Positions 4,324 through 35,777 of a stretch of 35,777 nucleotides of DNA are shown one piece after another. The translations under genes were made by a program, and so were the position numbers. Numbering within the stretch: the first letter of the stretch is position 1; every line of letters begins with the position of its first letter. The stretch lies in IMG/VR virus record IMGVR_UViG_3300007363_000015, positions 1 to 35,777 of that record, one strand, 5' to 3'. Below the pieces are notes generated by a model. That model did no database searches. It was not told where the DNA came from and saw only the letters and a program-made list of their open reading frames with translations. The DNA comes from a virus.

Positions 4324-5058
4324 ATGTACGGTTTCCAGTCATTTTCGGAGTCTCCATTCTCTGCGCTTGGTGGAGACATATATGTACTGGTTACAGGAGT
4401 TACAGCTACCGCATCAGTTGGTAGTGTTGTAGTTGCTGCTAGCGCAACCGTTTTAACAACTGGCGTTTCAGCAAATACATTTATTGGTGATGTAACGGTT
4501 GCTGCTGATGCAACCGTTTTGACAACTGGCGTTTCAGCAACAGGACAAACTGGCAATGTTGTAATTGCAATAATTGTTCCTGTTACTGGAGTATCTGCAA
4601 GTACGGACGTTGGATCTGTATCAATTGCCGTTAACCAAACGGCAATTGTTTCTGGATTACAAGCAACTGGACAGATCGGACAAGTTTCTGTTACAGCTAG
4701 TGCGGTGGTATTGCCAACTGGCGTATTTGCCACAGGGCAAACTGGAACTGTTACGATCCTTGTCGTTGTCCCTGTTACGGGAGTACAAGGCACATCTGTT
4801 CTTGGAACTATTACGCTCCAGAGCAACAACTTTCTGAATGTTTCTGGTCTACAGGGGACAACACAACTAGGAACGGTTACACTGTCAGGAGTGTGGAGCA
4901 ATCCAGATGATGGAGTGAATATTTGGATTCCTGACCCTGTTGATGTTAATTCTTGGATAGATGAACCAGATAGTGACAATGATTGGATTGCTGTTGTGAG
5001 TGGGTCGAATGTTTGGACTCAACAGCCAACCGGATCTAATAACTGGACAGCACAATGA
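4324..5058 (+). CDS. Repeat-built beta-rich tail or fibre protein
   Basis: The 244-residue protein is built from about eight copies of a roughly 22-residue unit of the form TGVSAT-x3-G-x-V-x-VxA (TGVTAT, TGVSAN, TGVSAT, TGVSAS, SGLQAT, TGVFAT, TGVQGT, SGLQGT). A Trp-rich tail follows, with repeated N-x-W or D-x-W units (VNIWIPDP, VNSWIDEP, DNDWIAV, SNVWTQQP, NNWTAQ). It is probably an extended beta structure exposed on the virion. The gene is noticeably richer in A and T than its neighbours, which fits exchange of receptor-facing modules. It overlaps the start of the tail nozzle gene by 4 bp (ATGA). Confidence 0.65.
   Translation: MYGFQSFSESPFSALGGDIYVLVTGVTATASVGSVVVAASATVLTTGVSANTFIGDVTVAADATVLTTGVSATGQTGNVVIAIIVPVTGVSASTDVGSVSIAVNQTAIVSGLQATGQIGQVSVTASAVVLPTGVFATGQTGTVTILVVVPVTGVQGTSVLGTITLQSNNFLNVSGLQGTTQLGTVTLSGVWSNPDDGVNIWIPDPVDVNSWIDEPDSDNDWIAVVSGSNVWTQQPTGSNNWTAQ
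4444..4540 (+). repeat. Near-identical 31-bp direct repeats within the beta-repeat gene
   Basis: Bases 4444-4474 and 4510-4540 match at 30 of 31 positions (one A/G difference), 66 bp apart, which is exactly 22 codons. They encode the adjacent units around LTTGVSA. The high identity implies recent duplication or gene conversion of the repeat unit. Confidence 0.85.
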
Positions 5059-6476
5059 GGATTGCATTCGGTCAGTGGACACCAGATCGGCCAGGGGTTT
5101 CTGGGAACCTGACCGAGGCTAAGAACATCTACCCTACAGCATCCGGGTATGCGTCTCTCAACGGGACTGCAAACCTGTCTGATGCTGCTAGTGAGAATCT
5201 GCTGACTGTGTTTGTTGGTCGATGGGCTGGCGCTACTACCCTATTCGGTGCTGGTGCTGGCAAACTGTTTAAGTTCGATCCTGCTGATGCTGATCTGGAT
5301 GATGTTTCCAGGACTCCGACTGCTTACTCCACAACTGACTTCTGGCAGTTCACTCAGTTTGGATCTCAGGTGATCGCGTCCAACGGTGTAGACAAGCTGC
5401 AAGCCTGGAACATGGCATCCAGCACAAGGTTTGCTGACCTTGCCGCTGCTGCTCCCACAGCATCGTTTGTGACCGTTGTGCGGGACTTTGTTGTTGCTGG
5501 CAAGACTTCAACGTATCCAAACAGGGTGTTGTGGTCTGATATCAACGATGAGACAGACTGGACTCCTGGTGCTGCCAGCCAATCCGACACGCAGGACATT
5601 CCTGACGGTGGTGAGATTCGCGGTATTACCGGAGGTGAGTTTGGTGTCGTTCTGATGGAGCGCGGTATCGTCCGGATGACCTACATTGGCGCACCATTGT
5701 TCTTCCAGTTCGACAACATTGCGCGAAACGTAGGCTGCTACGAGTCTCGATCTATTGCTCAATATGGCCCGATGACGTTCTTTCTGAGCGATGACGGGTT
5801 CTTTATGACCGATGGTCAGCAGGTCAAGCCTATCGGTGCAGAGAGGGTTGATAGGTGGTTCTACGCCAACGCAGATCCGTCTCAGTTCAGCAAGATGAGT
5901 GCTGCTGTCGATCCGGTCAACAAACTGGTGATCTGGTGCTTCCGGGACATCTTCAACGTCCAGAAGCTCCTGATCTACAACTGGTCAACGGATCGTTGGT
6001 CACACGGTGATTCCGGCGCTGACTACATCTCCAGCATTGCCACTGCATCTACTACTCTGGAACAGTTGGACAACATCTCAGCTAGTCTGGATGCGCTGCC
6101 AGCCTCTCTGGATTCGCGTCTGTGGACTGGTGGCAAACTGATCCTGGGTGGTGTATCCGGGGCCAGGATTGTCACCTTTGCTGGAACTGATCTCACCGGA
6201 ACGATTAACACAGGTGACATCACCGTAGAAGGCCAGGAAACGCTCATACGGCTTGCTAGGCCACAGATCGACAACGGCAGTGCTACGGTATCAGTCGCAA
6301 GCAGAAAACGCTTAGATGGGGCTATAACCTACTCTACCGCGGTTGCTGCTGACAGCGAGAACCGTGTGAGTCTAAGATCTAGGGGGAACTACCATCGGTT
6401 GAGTATCACCCCGACAGGGAACTACGACACTGCTGTTGGGATCGATGTGGACATTGTGTCTGTTGGTGGGCGCTGA
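5055..6476 (+). CDS. Tail nozzle / stabilisation protein (P22 gp10-like)
   Basis: The 473-residue protein closely matches the size of P22 gp10. It has the character of podoviral nozzle proteins: an N-terminal beta region with NLTEAKNIYPTASGYASLNG, then VLWSDINDETDWTPG, IVRMTYIGAPLFFQFDNI and FFLSDDGFFMTDGQQVKPIG. A beta-propeller-like series of W and G blades follows. These motifs are typical of phage stabilisation proteins, which seal the portal-adaptor channel. The start ATG overlaps the preceding stop by 4 bp, and the next gene starts on its last base, so these genes are co-translated. Confidence 0.8.
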   Translation: MRIAFGQWTPDRPGVSGNLTEAKNIYPTASGYASLNGTANLSDAASENLLTVFVGRWAGATTLFGAGAGKLFKFDPADADLDDVSRTPTAYSTTDFWQFTQFGSQVIASNGVDKLQAWNMASSTRFADLAAAAPTASFVTVVRDFVVAGKTSTYPNRVLWSDINDETDWTPGAASQSDTQDIPDGGEIRGITGGEFGVVLMERGIVRMTYIGAPLFFQFDNIARNVGCYESRSIAQYGPMTFFLSDDGFFMTDGQQVKPIGAERVDRWFYANADPSQFSKMSAAVDPVNKLVIWCFRDIFNVQKLLIYNWSTDRWSHGDSGADYISSIATASTTLEQLDNISASLDALPASLDSRLWTGGKLILGGVSGARIVTFAGTDLTGTINTGDITVEGQETLIRLARPQIDNGSATVSVASRKRLDGAITYSTAVAADSENRVSLRSRGNYHRLSITPTGNYDTAVGIDVDIVSVGGR

Positions 6477-9088: not shown

Positions 9089-10540
9089 ATGGAAGAAATC
9101 CTGAATCGACTGTTTCCGCAGCCACAGTATGTGTCTGGGTTGCTTGGAGATGAGTCGCAGATTGCACTTCAACAGGCTCGACAGCAGGGTCTGCTAGGTC
9201 TGGCTGCTGGTCTGTTGCAAGCCGGTGGGCCTAGTCGACAGAGAACCAACATCGGTCAGGCTATCGGTGCTGGACTCCAGGCTGGTCAACAAGCGTACAG
9301 GGGTGCGCTGTCGGAGCAGATCCAAGGTCAGCAGATGGCGCTGAAGCTGGCTGAACAGCAGAGATTGCAACAGCAGCAGCGAGCATTGCAAGGCATCATG
9401 CCGCAGTTGATGACGACTGGTTTGCAACAAGCGGAAAGAGCAGCAGATCCGATTGGTGCATTGCTTCAAACGATTGAAGCTGGGACTACCAACCAGCCGA
9501 TGCTGAATCAGCAAGCGTTGAACCTTGCTAGGTCATTCCTGAGTCCGAAAGACTTTAAGGATCTGGTTGAAGGATTGACCAAACAGCAGGAACTGGTTAC
9601 CGGGCCGAGAGAAGAGTATTCCACGACTCCGCAGACCATGTTGGTCAACAACCGTCCGACATCTGTTCTGTTCAGTAAGTCTGGTGGTATGCGTATTGTG
9701 GATGCTGCACCGCTACCGTCAGAGGAGAAGGTTGATACCGGGTCAGAGATTTTGTTCCGTGACAAGACGACTGGACGAATCATGTCTCGGATCAACAAAA
9801 CGCTTACACCTGGAGAAACTCGGCTGCTTGATCTGCGGGAGAGGGAGTTTGCTCGAGGTGGATACGACATTTTGCAAACGCCAGAAGGATTCGTTTACGC
9901 TCCGACTACTCCAGGTGCTGCTGCACAACCTGTTACTGCTGCTGGTGGCGCTCCTGTTCTGCCGATGGGTGCTGACAAACCTCCGACAGAAGGACAAGCA
10001 AAAGCAGCGAGCTTCCTTGGTGTAATGCGCGGTGCGTCTAGCGTGTTTGATCAGCCTTTGGTTGATCCTGCTGGCAAACCTGTGGTTGATGCGTCTGGTC
10101 AACAGATCACAGCAGAAATGGCTTATTCAACGCCAAATCTGTTGCAGTCTGCTGCTGGATCTGTTCCTTGGGTTGGTCAAACTTTGGAGCGATTGGGCAG
10201 TAGCGAAAACCGGCAGAGGGTATTGCAAGCTCAACAAGCATGGGTTCGTGCAAAGCTGCGTAAAGAGTCTGGTGCTGTCATCGGCGCTGATGAGATGGCA
10301 GACGAAATTAAGACGTTTTTCCCGCAGTTTGGTGATAAGCCTGAAACGATTAGGCAAAAGGCATTGCTTCGTCAGCAAGCCGAGTCTGGTCTTGTGGTAG
10401 AAGCTGGCCCGGCTGCGCGTGGCATTCAAACTGTTCCTGGCGCTCAAATCACTCCTTCGGCACGAGTTCAGCGTCAAGCAAGGCCACAGGTTGAGCTTCG
10501 ATACAATCCGCAAACCAGACGAATCGAGGAAGCGCAATGA
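9089..10540 (+). CDS. Putative internal virion / ejection protein
   Basis: The 483-residue protein has a Gln-rich N-terminal helical region (an LAGLLQAGG-type helix, QGQQMALKLAEQQRLQQQQRALQ), a middle beta part and a conserved-looking C-terminal helical block. That block contains QAQQAWVRAKLRKESGAVIG, then ADEMADEIKTFFPQFGDKPETIRQK and AEGL-type residues, and is familiar from ejection proteins of environmental podoviruses. It probably leaves the capsid ahead of the DNA. It overlaps the start of the next gene by 4 bp (ATGA). Confidence 0.65.
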   Translation: MEEILNRLFPQPQYVSGLLGDESQIALQQARQQGLLGLAAGLLQAGGPSRQRTNIGQAIGAGLQAGQQAYRGALSEQIQGQQMALKLAEQQRLQQQQRALQGIMPQLMTTGLQQAERAADPIGALLQTIEAGTTNQPMLNQQALNLARSFLSPKDFKDLVEGLTKQQELVTGPREEYSTTPQTMLVNNRPTSVLFSKSGGMRIVDAAPLPSEEKVDTGSEILFRDKTTGRIMSRINKTLTPGETRLLDLREREFARGGYDILQTPEGFVYAPTTPGAAAQPVTAAGGAPVLPMGADKPPTEGQAKAASFLGVMRGASSVFDQPLVDPAGKPVVDASGQQITAEMAYSTPNLLQSAAGSVPWVGQTLERLGSSENRQRVLQAQQAWVRAKLRKESGAVIGADEMADEIKTFFPQFGDKPETIRQKALLRQQAESGLVVEAGPAARGIQTVPGAQITPSARVQRQARPQVELRYNPQTRRIEEAQ

Positions 10541-18972: not shown

Positions 18973-19437
18973 ATGGTTCTGATTTATCTGTGTGCATTGG
19001 TGTTGGCTAATTTGTCTGTGTCTTATTTTGGGCCTTGGGTTAGTCCAATCAATGCGTTTCTGTTGATTGGTCTTGATCTGTCTTTACGAGACAAATTGCA
19101 CGAACGGTGGAAAGAGCATTTGTGGTCAAAGATGTTTGCGCTGATTGTTGGTGCTGGAGCTATTTCGTTTGTGCTTAATCCGGCTTCAATCAACATTGCT
19201 ATTGCTTCTGTGATTGCATTCATTGCTGCTGGATTGGTTGACGCATTCGTGTATCAACGACTGGTTTCCAAACAGTGGTTGATAAAGAGCAATGCTTCCA
19301 ATGCAGCTGGTGCTGCGGTTGACTCACTAATTTTCCCAACTATTGCATTCGGTTCGCTGATGCCAGCAATTGTTTTGCTTCAGTTTGCTGCCAAGGTTGT
19401 CGGTGGCGCACTGTGGTCATGGATGCTGAGAAAATGA
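18973..19437 (+). CDS. VUT/YhhQ-family membrane transporter (7-deazaguanine precursor)
   Basis: From ATG 18973 (AAGGAG at 18961) the protein is 154 residues with five to six membrane helices. It has the VUT family pattern: LANLSVSYFGPWVSPINAFL, then LIGLDLSLRDKLHERWKEHLW, later SNAAGAAVDSLIFPTIAFG and a C-terminal VVGGALWSW. Family members of the YhhQ type import preQ0 or preQ1, precursors of queuosine. It is shorter than bacterial YhhQ, as phage copies often are. The next gene, overlapping by 4 bp, resembles DpdA, which inserts 7-deazaguanines in DNA. The pair suggests salvage of the precursor instead of its synthesis. Confidence 0.78.
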   Translation: MVLIYLCALVLANLSVSYFGPWVSPINAFLLIGLDLSLRDKLHERWKEHLWSKMFALIVGAGAISFVLNPASINIAIASVIAFIAAGLVDAFVYQRLVSKQWLIKSNASNAAGAAVDSLIFPTIAFGSLMPAIVLLQFAAKVVGGALWSWMLRK

Positions 19438-20105
19438 TCCATTACCACGGAACACCAATCACACCGTTGATTGCTTTGGATTCAATGGTTGGTCAACACT
19501 TCTGTGTGTCGTACTTCCGTCCAGACTCGCTGCGTAAATGCTTGCAGATTGGACAAAGCATCATGTTTGATAACGGCGCATTCAGTTGCAAAACAAGAGG
19601 AGTACCGTTTGATTTAGATGGGTTTTACGAGTGGGTTGATCCTTTGCTTGGTCATCCGCATTGGGCAGTTGTGCCAGATGTCATAGACGGAACTGTCGAG
19701 CAGCAGAAGGAAATGGTTAAGACATGGCCATTCCCTAAGTCTCTCGGGATTCCTGTATGGCATCTTGGGTTGCCTATTGACTACCTTTTGGAGCTTGCCG
19801 ATCAGTGGGGTAAGGTTTGTTTCGGATCAGCTGGAGAGTATTGGCAAGTTGGTAGTCCAAAGTGGTCAGCAAGGATGGATGAGGCTTTCAACGCTCTTGA
19901 TAGAACCTTTAACAGGCTTCCCTGGGTTCATGGTTTAAGAATGCTTGGTCAGACAGAGTATCCGCTTGCCAGTGCAGATTCCACAAATGTTGCAGTCAAT
20001 CACTCTGGAAACACGTTCTGCGCTGGATGCATGGCAAAGCGAGTGAATGCAAACAATCCAGCTGGAAAGTGGGTTCAGCGTTTAGAACAGGAGGTTCTTT
20101 TCTGA
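19434..20105 (+). CDS. DpdA-like DNA transglycosylase candidate
   Basis: From ATG 19434 the protein is 223 residues. Features match DpdA-type proteins, distant relatives of tRNA-guanine transglycosylase: IHYHGTPITPLIALD at the N-terminus, FDNGAFS (Asp46), WAVVPDVIDGT (Asp82, Asp85), the IPVWHLG strand, GSAGEYWQVGSP, LPWVHGLRMLG, and ASADSTNVAVNH (Asp182). A C-x-x-C lies at 196-199. In this fold Asp residues act in base exchange, here of guanine in DNA. The start overlaps the transporter stop (ATGA), so the two are translationally coupled. No queD, queE, queC or folE homologue was seen. An alternative start is ATG 19419. Confidence 0.65.
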   Translation: MIHYHGTPITPLIALDSMVGQHFCVSYFRPDSLRKCLQIGQSIMFDNGAFSCKTRGVPFDLDGFYEWVDPLLGHPHWAVVPDVIDGTVEQQKEMVKTWPFPKSLGIPVWHLGLPIDYLLELADQWGKVCFGSAGEYWQVGSPKWSARMDEAFNALDRTFNRLPWVHGLRMLGQTEYPLASADSTNVAVNHSGNTFCAGCMAKRVNANNPAGKWVQRLEQEVLF

Positions 20106-22568: not shown

Positions 22569-22586
22569 AAAATATTTTGCAGAAAG

Positions 22587-22615
22587 TTCACACAGGACTG
22601 CAAGGTTCATGTAAA
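22587..22615 (+). promoter_or_regulatory. Candidate promoter after the replication genes
   Basis: TTCACA (22587-22592) and TGTAAA (22610-22615) are separated by 17 bp, in the only sizeable gap of this stretch (22569-22651). It would start transcription near 22622 for the run of small accessory genes from 22652 on. The -35 matches 5 of 6 bases and the -10 matches 4 of 6. Confidence 0.5.
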
Positions 22616-22651
22616 GTTACTCCATCGACACACACAACAGGAGTAGCAAAC

Positions 22652-22867
22652 ATGAGCAACTTGTACGACAAAGCCTACGCTGAATACTGCAAGCTTCCAG
22701 AAGTGCGGATTGATCCTCTGGATATGCCAGAAGACATCAGTCACATGGTGTACCGAGCGCGACACGAGATTGATCTAATCGAGGAGGGTGAGCGCGATGA
22801 CGATATGCCATCACGCGCAGACATCAACAAGATCAAACGCTTTCTTAAAAAGTGGGCTGGCAAGTAA
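22652..22867 (+). CDS. Small accessory protein, unknown function
   Basis: From ATG 22652 (AGGAG ten bases upstream) the protein is 71 residues, acidic and helical: MSNLYDKAYAEYCKLPEVRI, then DPLDMPEDISHMVYRARHEIDLIEEGERDD. It ends in a basic helix (INKIKRFLKKWAGK). No family is recognised. It is the first gene behind a candidate promoter and is followed by a hammerhead ribozyme, so its mRNA would acquire a defined 3' end by self-cleavage. Confidence 0.6.
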   Translation: MSNLYDKAYAEYCKLPEVRIDPLDMPEDISHMVYRARHEIDLIEEGERDDDMPSRADINKIKRFLKKWAGK

Positions 22868-22883
22868 ATAATCTGGTGCGTTA

Positions 22884-22935
22884 GGTCGAAACCGGCGAGA
22901 GCCGGTCTGCCAGTGATGCTGGCACTGATGAGACC
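22884..22935 (+). ncRNA. Hammerhead ribozyme, type II
   Basis: All core elements of a hammerhead are present in the permutation open at stem II. Stem II is GGTC (22884-22887) with GACC (22932-22935), possibly extended by GTT/AAC outside a bulged A. The core GAA (22888-22890) follows. Stem III is ACCGGC (22891-22896) and GCCGGT (22901-22906) with a GAGA tetraloop. The cleavage site is after C22907 (GUC). Stem I is TGCCAG (22908-22913) and CTGGCA (22919-22924), followed by the CUGAUGA core (22925-22931). It lies in the non-coding gap; the next gene's AAGGAG begins at 22939. Confidence 0.92.
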
Positions 22936-22949
22936 AACAAGGAGCAGAA

Positions 22950-23123
22950 ATGAAGATCAAAGCATCAACCCTTGCAATCGCACTGCAAGCGATCAAATGG
23001 GCGCAGAACCAGAAGGATTGCCCGGATCATCTTAAGTTCATTGCGACCCTGGACGCGCAGGTCAACATCAAAGTGGTTCTGGATTCATTGCAGGTCGAGG
23101 TTGAGGATGAGCACGTGTGTTGA
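22950..23123 (+). CDS. Small protein downstream of the ribozyme, unknown function
   Basis: A 57-residue frame from ATG 22950, with AAGGAG six bases upstream: MKIKASTLAIALQAIKWAQN, then QKDCPDHLKFIATLDAQVNIKVVLDSL. It is mostly one amphipathic helical pattern. The last 17 bp overlap the start of the next gene. The ribozyme would leave a 5'-OH leader of 42 bases on its message. Function unknown. Confidence 0.6.
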   Translation: MKIKASTLAIALQAIKWAQNQKDCPDHLKFIATLDAQVNIKVVLDSLQVEVEDEHVC

Positions 23124-23298
23124 GTGTGGATCTTGGGATTCCAAGACGCTGGAGACCAGGAAAGACACTCGATACTGGTGGATCTGGAGAAGGAAGAAAT
23201 GTCATGACTGCGGAGCAACCTGGGCCACATACGAGGTTCCAGTGCAGTCACTGACAGCAGAAGCTTCTAACCCCGATGGAAAACTGGAGCGAAGATAA
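23107..23298 (+). CDS. Zinc-ribbon protein, NrdR/Ogr-like
   Basis: From ATG 23107 the protein is 63 residues. It has a four-Cys zinc ribbon (TCVECGSWDSKTLETRK, then WWIWRRKKCHDCGATWATYE), with C-x-x-C pairs near residues 4-7 and 32-35 and aromatic residues between. The fold and spacing resemble the N-terminal ribbon of NrdR and small phage transcription activators, with no ATP-cone domain. It may bind nucleic acid or act in transcription. Start overlaps the preceding gene and the stop shares bases with the next start (TAATG). Confidence 0.7.
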   Translation: MSTCVECGSWDSKTLETRKDTRYWWIWRRKKCHDCGATWATYEVPVQSLTAEASNPDGKLERR

Positions 23299-23546
23299 TG
23301 GAAATTGAAACCAGGATTCAAGGCATCCCTTGCATCGTCAAGCTGGTCAGCTATGAGCGAGTCAATGGATCTTTCTCTCGCAACTCTGCATCGGATCTGG
23401 ACTACTACGGATGGAGCGATGCAACTTATCAAGTGTGTGACCGCAGAGGTAGGCCAGCACCGTGGTTGGAGCGTAAAGCTACCGACAAAGACTGGATGAG
23501 CATCGACATTCAGATGGATCGCGTTAGGGAGTATCAGAATGACTAG
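23298..23546 (+). CDS. Small conserved phage protein, unknown function
   Basis: The 82-residue protein starts EIETRIQGIPCIVKLVSYER and has a beta-rich body ending with the polar SASDLDYYGWSDATYQVCDRR region and DKDWMSIDIQMDRVREY. The shape (I-G-IPC-V, then W or Y strands and a charged helix) is a familiar accessory-gene pattern in phages with no known role. It is coupled to its neighbours by overlaps at both ends. Confidence 0.6.
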   Translation: MEIETRIQGIPCIVKLVSYERVNGSFSRNSASDLDYYGWSDATYQVCDRRGRPAPWLERKATDKDWMSIDIQMDRVREYQND

Positions 23547-23814
23547 GCAACAAATAAAACAAATGATGCACGAGTCAAAAGCAATCGAATGGTTTGATTC
23601 TGAAAACATGGACTGGCTGGAGTATGTAAATGTATTTGATAGGTTTGCCAGCCTTGTTGTTGCTGCTGAACGCGTTGCAATCGAAGAGGCAGAGAAGCCG
23701 CGCCAATGGCAAGGGCTGCACTCAAGAAAGCAAGAGGTGAGAAATGACCGACAACATCAAACCATTTATCAAAGCCACTACACCAGACAACAGCGACGCG
23801 ATTGCAATGCTTGA
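23539..23814 (+). CDS. Small accessory protein, helical N-terminus
   Basis: The 91-residue frame begins with acidic helices (TRQQIKQMMHESKAIEWFDS, then ENMDWLEYVNVFDRFASLVVAAERVAIEEAE). After about residue 64 it becomes Arg/Gln/His-rich (RNDRQHQTIYQSHYTRQQRR) where it overlaps the next gene, so the tail may be tolerated rather than selected. Function unknown. Start overlaps the preceding gene by 8 bp. Confidence 0.5.
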   Translation: MTRQQIKQMMHESKAIEWFDSENMDWLEYVNVFDRFASLVVAAERVAIEEAEKPRQWQGLHSRKQEVRNDRQHQTIYQSHYTRQQRRDCNA

Positions 23815-35114: not shown

Positions 35115-35777
35115 ATGAGCACTTTTACCGCACACAGCGCAATCGGGATGCGCGAAGACCTGATTGATGTTATCTACGACATCAGTCCTACCGAAACCCC
35201 GATCCTGTCCACCCTGGCTCGCACCAAAGCGACTGCTGTTTACCACGAATGGCAAAGCGATTCGCTGGCTGCTGCTACGACTGCAAACGCTGCGGTTGAG
35301 GGCGCTGATGCTGTTGCTACCACGATCAGCCCGACTGTTCGTCTTGGCAACTACACGCAGATCGTTCAAAAGACGATCAGCATCTCCAACACACTGGAAG
35401 CCGTTAACAAGGCTGGCCGGAAGTCGGAGAAGGCGTATCAGCTTTCCAAGGCTGCGTCGGAACTGAAGCGCGACATGGAAACCATCATCACTGCCAACCA
35501 AGGGCAGACTGCTGGTTCGTCCACCACCGCTCGGAAACTCGGTGCGATTCTGTCCTGGCTGAAGACCAACACTTCCGCTGGTACGTCTGGCACTGATCCG
35601 ACGACGATTGGTGTCTCGACTCGCTCGGATGGTGCTACCCGTACCTTCACCGAGACGCTGCTGAAGGATGTGGTTGCCGAGGTGTTTGTTTCGGGTGGCA
35701 ATCCGAAACTGCTGGTGGTCAACAGCGGTCTGAAGCAGAAGGTGTCGAGTTTCGCTGGTATCGCTGCACAGCGTTAC
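35115..35777 (+). CDS. Major capsid protein, N-terminal part (SU10-like)
   Basis: The gene starts at ATG 35115 and runs off the window end; its 221 codons here continue at base 121 on the circle. The N-terminus (STFTAHSAIGMREDLIDVIY, then DISPTETPILSTLARTKATA) is typical of SU10-like capsid proteins, with an N-arm followed by the E-loop region (TAVYHEWQSDSLAAATTANA). NYTQIVQKTISISNTLEAVN lies at the spine helix. It follows scaffold after 11 bp. Total length about 314 residues. Confidence 0.88.
   Translation, partial: MSTFTAHSAIGMREDLIDVIYDISPTETPILSTLARTKATAVYHEWQSDSLAAATTANAAVEGADAVATTISPTVRLGNYTQIVQKTISISNTLEAVNKAGRKSEKAYQLSKAASELKRDMETIITANQGQTAGSSTTARKLGAILSWLKTNTSAGTSGTDPTTIGVSTRSDGATRTFTETLLKDVVAEVFVSGGNPKLLVVNSGLKQKVSSFAGIAAQRY
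35658..35777. repeat. Right copy of 120-bp terminal direct repeat
   Basis: It is an exact copy of bases 1-120, at the same codon phase. See the left copy. Removing one copy gives a circle of 35,657 bp. Confidence 0.97.

Follow-up and report, generated by a model that had tools for sequence, protein, structure and literature searches.

The ribozyme and its setting

The window, by which we mean the whole analysed stretch of 35,777 bp, is a circular phage record with an exact 120-bp terminal repeat (1–120 and 35658–35777), and the major capsid gene is cut by the contig ends. Its phage genes include an SU10-type portal, Terminase_3, Erf and a YqaJ exonuclease, together with a Cro/YdaS-like regulator, NinB, an O-like replication gene and a weak match to a P-like helicase loader. 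A gene of 71 aa lies to the right of the P-like gene and is followed by the ribozyme described here and by a gene of 57 aa (Table 1), the end of which overlaps a run of small genes (23107–23298, 23298–23546 and 23539–23814). The regulator, NinB, O-like and P-like genes all stand upstream of the ribozyme on the same strand, which supports the early setting, here a rightward region, assigned by an earlier model reading of the bare letters (the sequence-only reading).

Profile searches returned no family match for the product of the 71-aa gene, the 57-aa gene had no Pfam, PHROG or PADLOC match, and a defence-library search of the neighbouring genes gave no match. The annotated phage collection held no close relatives of the region or of the 57-aa protein, and its terminase relatives had less than 60% identity. 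Two side observations lie apart from the ribozyme: a gene at 19419–20102 of the window matches PHROG 887 (queuine tRNA-ribosyltransferase-like), an unusual cargo for an early region, and the viral contig L111 carries on its minus strand (6081–6146) a tmRNA match above the Rfam threshold that is only 66 bases long.

Table 1. Positions of the ribozyme, its parts and its neighbours in the window.
Feature	Position	Strand	Basis and remarks
Leader ahead of the accessory slot	22569–22651	+	Slot comparison
71-aa accessory gene (MSNLYDKAY...)	22652–22867	+	Open reading frame upstream of the ribozyme; slot with unrelated genes in related phages
Stem II, 3′ strand (GGTC)	22884–22887	+	Pairs with 22932–22935; direct reading, fold, covariation
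Core G12 A13 A14 (GAA)	22888–22890	+	Invariant across 47 class B sequences
Stem III hairpin (ACCGGC-GAGA-GCCGGT)	22891–22906	+	Fold, covariation, product folds; would cap the upstream product at its 3′ end
C17, predicted cleavage 3′ of this base	22907	+	Position in the hammerhead fold; upstream product would carry a 2′,3′-cyclic phosphate
Stem I hairpin (TGCCAG-TGATG-CTGGCA)	22908–22924	+	Class B form, 6 bp and UNANG loop; class sorting, covariation, product folds
Core CUGAUGA (C3–A9)	22925–22931	+	Direct reading, Rfam match, class B alignment
Stem II, 5′ strand (GACC)	22932–22935	+	Direct reading, fold, covariation
Shine-Dalgarno AAGGAG of the downstream gene	22939–22944	+	Direct reading
57-aa downstream gene	22950–23123	+	Open reading frame; conserved in 17 IMG/VR loci

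The two genes are separated by 82 non-coding nucleotides (22868–22949), and positions 22884–22935 within this gap form a complete type II hammerhead ribozyme, with every core base and three helices. The stretch reads GGTC-GAA-ACCGGC-GAGA-GCCGGT-C-TGCCAG-TGATG-CTGGCA-CTGATGA-GACC. All letters of the hammerhead core (CUGANGA, GAA, A15.1–U16.1 and H17) are present at 22888–22891, 22906–22907 and 22925–22931, and the three helices around them have covariation support. Loops close stems I and III and stem II is open, which is the type II arrangement. Direct reading therefore bore out the stem-II-open hammerhead that the sequence-only reading had placed here, along with the size of the gap, the AAGGAG three bases past the ribozyme and the coordinates of a 42-nt leader (22908–22949) for the downstream gene. 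Its predicted cleavage site, after C22907, agrees with the hammerhead fold. The minimum-energy fold (−24 kcal/mol, z = −3.7) reproduces the hammerhead exactly, and one of 200 shuffles folded equally well. Scans of the 35.8-kb record with the Rfam model and with the class B model described below found no type II hammerhead besides this one; another weak Rfam ring, at 10201–10307 (11.7 bits, E 0.4), was judged to be chance. A scan for promoters and terminators gave counts at the level of shuffled sequence, a weak promoter-like site at 22845–22872 included.

Specificity, sub-forms and the Rfam threshold

The Rfam model RF02276 (Hammerhead_II) scored the ribozyme at 33.5 bits (E = 5.5e-5 in a 601-nt scan), against a curated gathering score of 37 bits, and a scan of the window at the gathering threshold returned no match, which is an effect of the threshold. 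The sequence-only reading had named an Rfam covariance score above threshold as its check, and that check formally failed. The shortfall is a property of the Rfam model, because the model describes a pseudoknotted sub-form and members of the class to which the window ribozyme belongs generally miss the cut-off. We file the window ribozyme as a type II hammerhead by structure, rather than as a gathering match to RF02276.

The specificity of the structural description was assessed with a descriptor of the core and three stems, which matched 203 sites, spread over 120 loci, when run on 1.35 Mb of loci; the reversed DNA gave none. A match in L129 at ~5327 sits inside coding sequence and is likely a false positive. 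A pattern consisting of the core letters only matched at least 120 IMG/VR stretches, and pairing in all three stems was found in 130 of 151 viral and 47 of 50 genomic letter-only matches.

When 187 distinct type II ribozymes were sorted by their stems II and I, they fell into two tight groups. Class A (n = 116), which is the Perreault/Rfam consensus form, has mostly a 2–3-bp stem II and a 21–24-nt stem I hairpin, and in 95 of the 116 loop I could form a pseudoknot of 4 bp or more with the 3′ tail. Class B (n = 70) has a stem II of at least 4 bp and a stem I hairpin that is mostly 17 nt long and carries a UNANG loop (U in 49, A in 42 and G in 37 of 52), with an A immediately 5′ of stem II in 64 of 70 and immediately 3′ of it in 57 of 70. 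Pseudoknot matches occurred in 12 of 70 class B members, below the ~30% expected from shuffled tails, an expectation taken over the whole set. The window ribozyme belongs to class B, with a 4-bp stem II, a 17-nt stem I and a UNANG loop. It lacks the combination of short stem II and loop I/3′-tail pseudoknot of at least 4 bp that marks the pseudoknotted sub-form: the 4-mer pseudoknot found automatically in it draws on stem I bases, and on inspection the UGAUG loop itself shows no run of 4 unbroken pairs with the 3′ tail. Depending on the tertiary contact of class B, cleavage may be slow at physiological magnesium.

Rfam scores separated the classes, with 45–64 bits for class A (in L116) and 26–34 bits for class B, such that the gathering threshold caught three of 34 distinct class B ribozymes in 14 loci and left 31 below. 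A class B covariance model gave the window ribozyme 72.9 bits, with an identical twin (L126) in the training set, while other class B orthologs scored 61–77 bits and mainly class A loci 25–49 bits. In the class B alignment (n = 47), 98.7% of cells were paired, double changes occurred at 13 of 16 pairs, and covariation was 0.83 compared to 0.17 in shuffled alignments and at most 0.12 with slid partners; the 47 sequences were chosen partly for pairing, and for this reason the letter-only and ortholog tests matter.

Placement, arrays and the accessory slot

Orthologous loci were picked by similarity of the 57-aa protein alone, and six distinct loci carried the ribozyme. The core and stem II were identical among them, and stems I and III had changed. 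A model-fitted alignment contained eight two-sided changes with pairing kept, a number reached by none of 500 shuffles, and a plain MAFFT alignment contained three such compensatory cells, reached by 15 of 500. MAFFT misplaces stem III in this six-ortholog alignment; consequently, the covariance-model alignment was used as well.

Comparison of these relatives revealed an accessory slot ahead of the 57-aa gene. In seven loci the slot gene is absent, and a leader related to 22569–22651 runs straight into the 57-aa gene. Where the slot is occupied, the leader is followed by one of six unrelated small genes and then, in the window type and in L125, L129, L130, L132 and L134, by the ribozyme. L131 has nothing in the place of the ribozyme, and in L136 (~4960–5000) a GGGGC-UUCG-GCCCC hairpin replaces it with the same accessory gene upstream. 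The next gene after the ribozyme or its substitute is always the 57-aa gene, and CAAC-A(A)GGAG is common to both slot edges. In the slot comparison, the ribozyme thus stands where an accessory gene that can be exchanged meets a downstream gene that stays the same. Judged from L131, L136 and the seven loci without a slot gene, the ribozyme is not essential at this place.

Placement relative to codons followed a recurrent pattern. Among 183 viral ribozymes, an open-frame stop lay within 12 nt before G12 in 68%, compared to 4% at random positions, and a start codon with a Shine-Dalgarno sequence lay 10–45 nt past A9 in 74%, compared to 11%; random positions are a weak control here, as intergenic elements of compact genomes lie near stops and starts anyway. 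Class A and class B were alike in this, and an independent set of 53 class B ribozymes from GTDB genome contigs, gathered by letters only, followed the stop rule in 66% and the start rule in 75%. Median distances were 5–7 nt from stop to G12 and 27–28 nt from A9 to start, and some genome copies (L151, L168) have a TAG stop that abuts stem II or falls within it. In the window, 16 nt separate the stop from the ribozyme and 18 nt separate A9 from the start, which fits the start rule and just misses the stop rule. By this sequence comparison, the order of stop, ribozyme and start appears to recur in hundreds of other phage copies. Type II hammerheads also occur in arrays, with 10–11 in 7 kb of L116 (nearly one per gene), nine in L028 and seven in L062.

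The stem III region gave a weak BLAST match that pointed to the cultured Streptomyces phages Haizum (MH590601, L192) and Daudau (MF766045, L193), which contain eight and nine type II ribozymes, respectively, none of them annotated. All belong to one leftward operon (genes 60–83) and lie on its coding strand. Eleven of the 17 copies stand 9–25 nt before an annotated start, three annotated starts fall inside a ribozyme, and gene 75 of Haizum is annotated from the first base of a ribozyme, which suggests that starts in these genomes have been mis-annotated. In each phage one ribozyme directly precedes an OCR-like antirestriction gene; in the account of Perreault et al., ardA immediately follows hammerheads in Legionella and has them on both sides in Agrobacterium (PMC3088659). 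The Rhodobacter phage RcWaterboi (MW677528) carries a single unannotated hammerhead of the pseudoknot class at 10392–10462, between an HU-like gene and gene 20. The literature searched, the main texts of openly accessible papers, yielded no earlier account of class B and its Rfam shortfall, of the placement statistics or of the cultured multi-copy phages; class B members may be present in the dataset of Perreault et al.

Possible role in the operon

We consider it likely that 22884–22935 is a cis-acting, self-cleaving and pseudoknot-free type II hammerhead that serves as intercistronic punctuation in an early phage operon. The evidence for this consists of its anatomy, the covariation, the recurrent order of stop, ribozyme and start, and the conservation of the ribozyme while the genes upstream of it change. 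Genes on the same strand flank it on both sides, and one transcript across them is predicted. The nascent polycistronic RNA would fold and cut after C22907, splitting the mRNA as the sequence-only reading had proposed, and we find that reading of the element supported. The upstream message, with the 71-aa accessory gene, would end in the stem III hairpin and a cyclic phosphate, whereas the downstream message, with the 57-aa gene and the genes overlapping it, would begin with a 5′-OH, have the stem I hairpin as its first structure from the first base and continue into the ribosome site. In a type II hammerhead stems I and III both end in loops, and it follows from the topology that this permutation, alone of the three, gives the upstream product a hairpin at its new 3′ end and the downstream product one at its new 5′ end. 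Predicted folds of the products kept the terminal hairpin on each side.

Cleavage of this kind should make the two messages independent of each other in stability, and the downstream genes would keep the same 5′ end no matter which accessory gene precedes them. We regard such uncoupling, with stable and constant ends for both messages, as the likeliest effect, based on the difference between a 5′-OH and a 5′-monophosphate, on stabilisation by hairpins and on the behaviour of RiboJ. RNases E, Y and J prefer a 5′-monophosphate (PMC3997798), for which a 5′-OH cannot stand in, and a hairpin near or at the 5′ end can stabilise mRNA (PMC3997798). RiboJ, an engineered hammerhead with a hairpin, yields more mRNA and protein from the downstream gene (PMC6206723). 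Release of the Shine-Dalgarno sequence by cutting was also considered and was unsupported by folding; in the product, weak pairing with an in-gene CCUUG is possible. Against punctuation, the close spacing of stops and starts could simply come from the compactness of phage genomes.

A second reading is a translation-gated switch, in which terminating or initiating ribosomes compete with folding and cleavage occurs mainly when a flanking gene is untranslated. Given the size of ribosome footprints, the median spacings would put ribosomes at either codon over the core or stem II, and the TAG stops of L151 and L168 at or in stem II are consistent with this. Compact genomes yield short gaps anyway, however, and the window stop is as far as 16 nt upstream of the ribozyme, and we hold the switch to be possible but doubtful.

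The slot could also reflect a role at the level of DNA, with ribozyme sequences acting as recombination joints for the swapping of accessory genes and RNA activity secondary. Different accessory genes stand ahead of the same ribozyme and core gene, CAAC-A(A)GGAG lies at both slot edges, class B stem-loops are more alike within a contig (0.72 and 0.77) than between contigs (0.54), and genes between ribozymes of the same contig are mostly unrelated. The core-plus-stem repeats are nevertheless short, and a strict core with compensatory stem changes points to selection for RNA rather than for DNA identity, which makes a recombination joint improbable. We give little credence to the idea that the hairpins alone matter, through protection of mRNA ends or ribosome spacing, with cleavage unimportant. 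The simple UUCG hairpin of L136, in the same place and with the same accessory gene, speaks for it, but the single-stranded GAA, CUGAUGA and C17 are kept in nearly all copies, a figure inflated by selection on core letters, and also in the orthologs, which were not core-selected. That the element is a chance look-alike or a decayed, inactive ribozyme, as the Rfam score under the curated threshold might suggest, is highly improbable in light of the specificity control (none versus 203), the orthologous conservation with compensatory changes and the class B score.

Returning to punctuation by self-cleavage, the ribozyme is of a kind already known. Perreault et al. in 2011 found type II hammerheads to be frequent in prophages and to flank genes, proposed operon processing, showed that some cleave in vitro and in E. 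coli, and noted many without a pseudoknot (PMC3088659). The sequence-only reading, which called the role poorly defined, understated what Perreault et al. had reported; the role has been open since 2011 (PMC3088659) and is still called unknown in later papers (PMC6155905, PMC10085705). The window ribozyme shares with their type II set and RF02276 the core, the open stem II, the sites between (pro)phage genes and the tendency to occur several per region, and its sub-form lies under the standard threshold. The consensus has a short stem II and a loop I/3′-tail pseudoknot, whereas the window ribozyme combines a stem II of 4 bp with a 17-nt stem I hairpin that ends in a UNANG loop, and any pseudoknot in it is unclear. 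The type I and III hammerheads of viroid-like RNAs, satellite RNAs and retroelements have the same catalytic core and use non-Watson-Crick loop contacts without a pseudoknot (PMC6155905), and the window ribozyme may do likewise; they are other permutations and resolve replication multimers, whereas the window ribozyme would cut phage mRNA. As predicted here, it would resemble RiboJ (PMC6206723) in cutting off the upstream leader and leaving a hairpin before the ribosome site. RiboJ is synthetic, combining the sTRSV hammerhead with an added hairpin after a promoter, whereas in the window stem I itself is the hairpin and the ribozyme lies between genes.

More speculatively, and with considerable reservation on our part, class B and pseudoknotted type II hammerheads could be a standard gene-boundary part, a compact unit of stop, ribozyme and ribosome site that caps both mRNA ends, is gated by ribosomes at the flanking codons and admits accessory genes without disturbing their neighbours. 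Haizum and Daudau, with eight to nine copies in one operon, are cultured and make the question of function testable at the bench. Taken with the placement and the class that the Rfam threshold misses, they bring the role of phage hammerheads within experimental reach, and the type II ribozymes of phages are a possible source of natural insulator parts.
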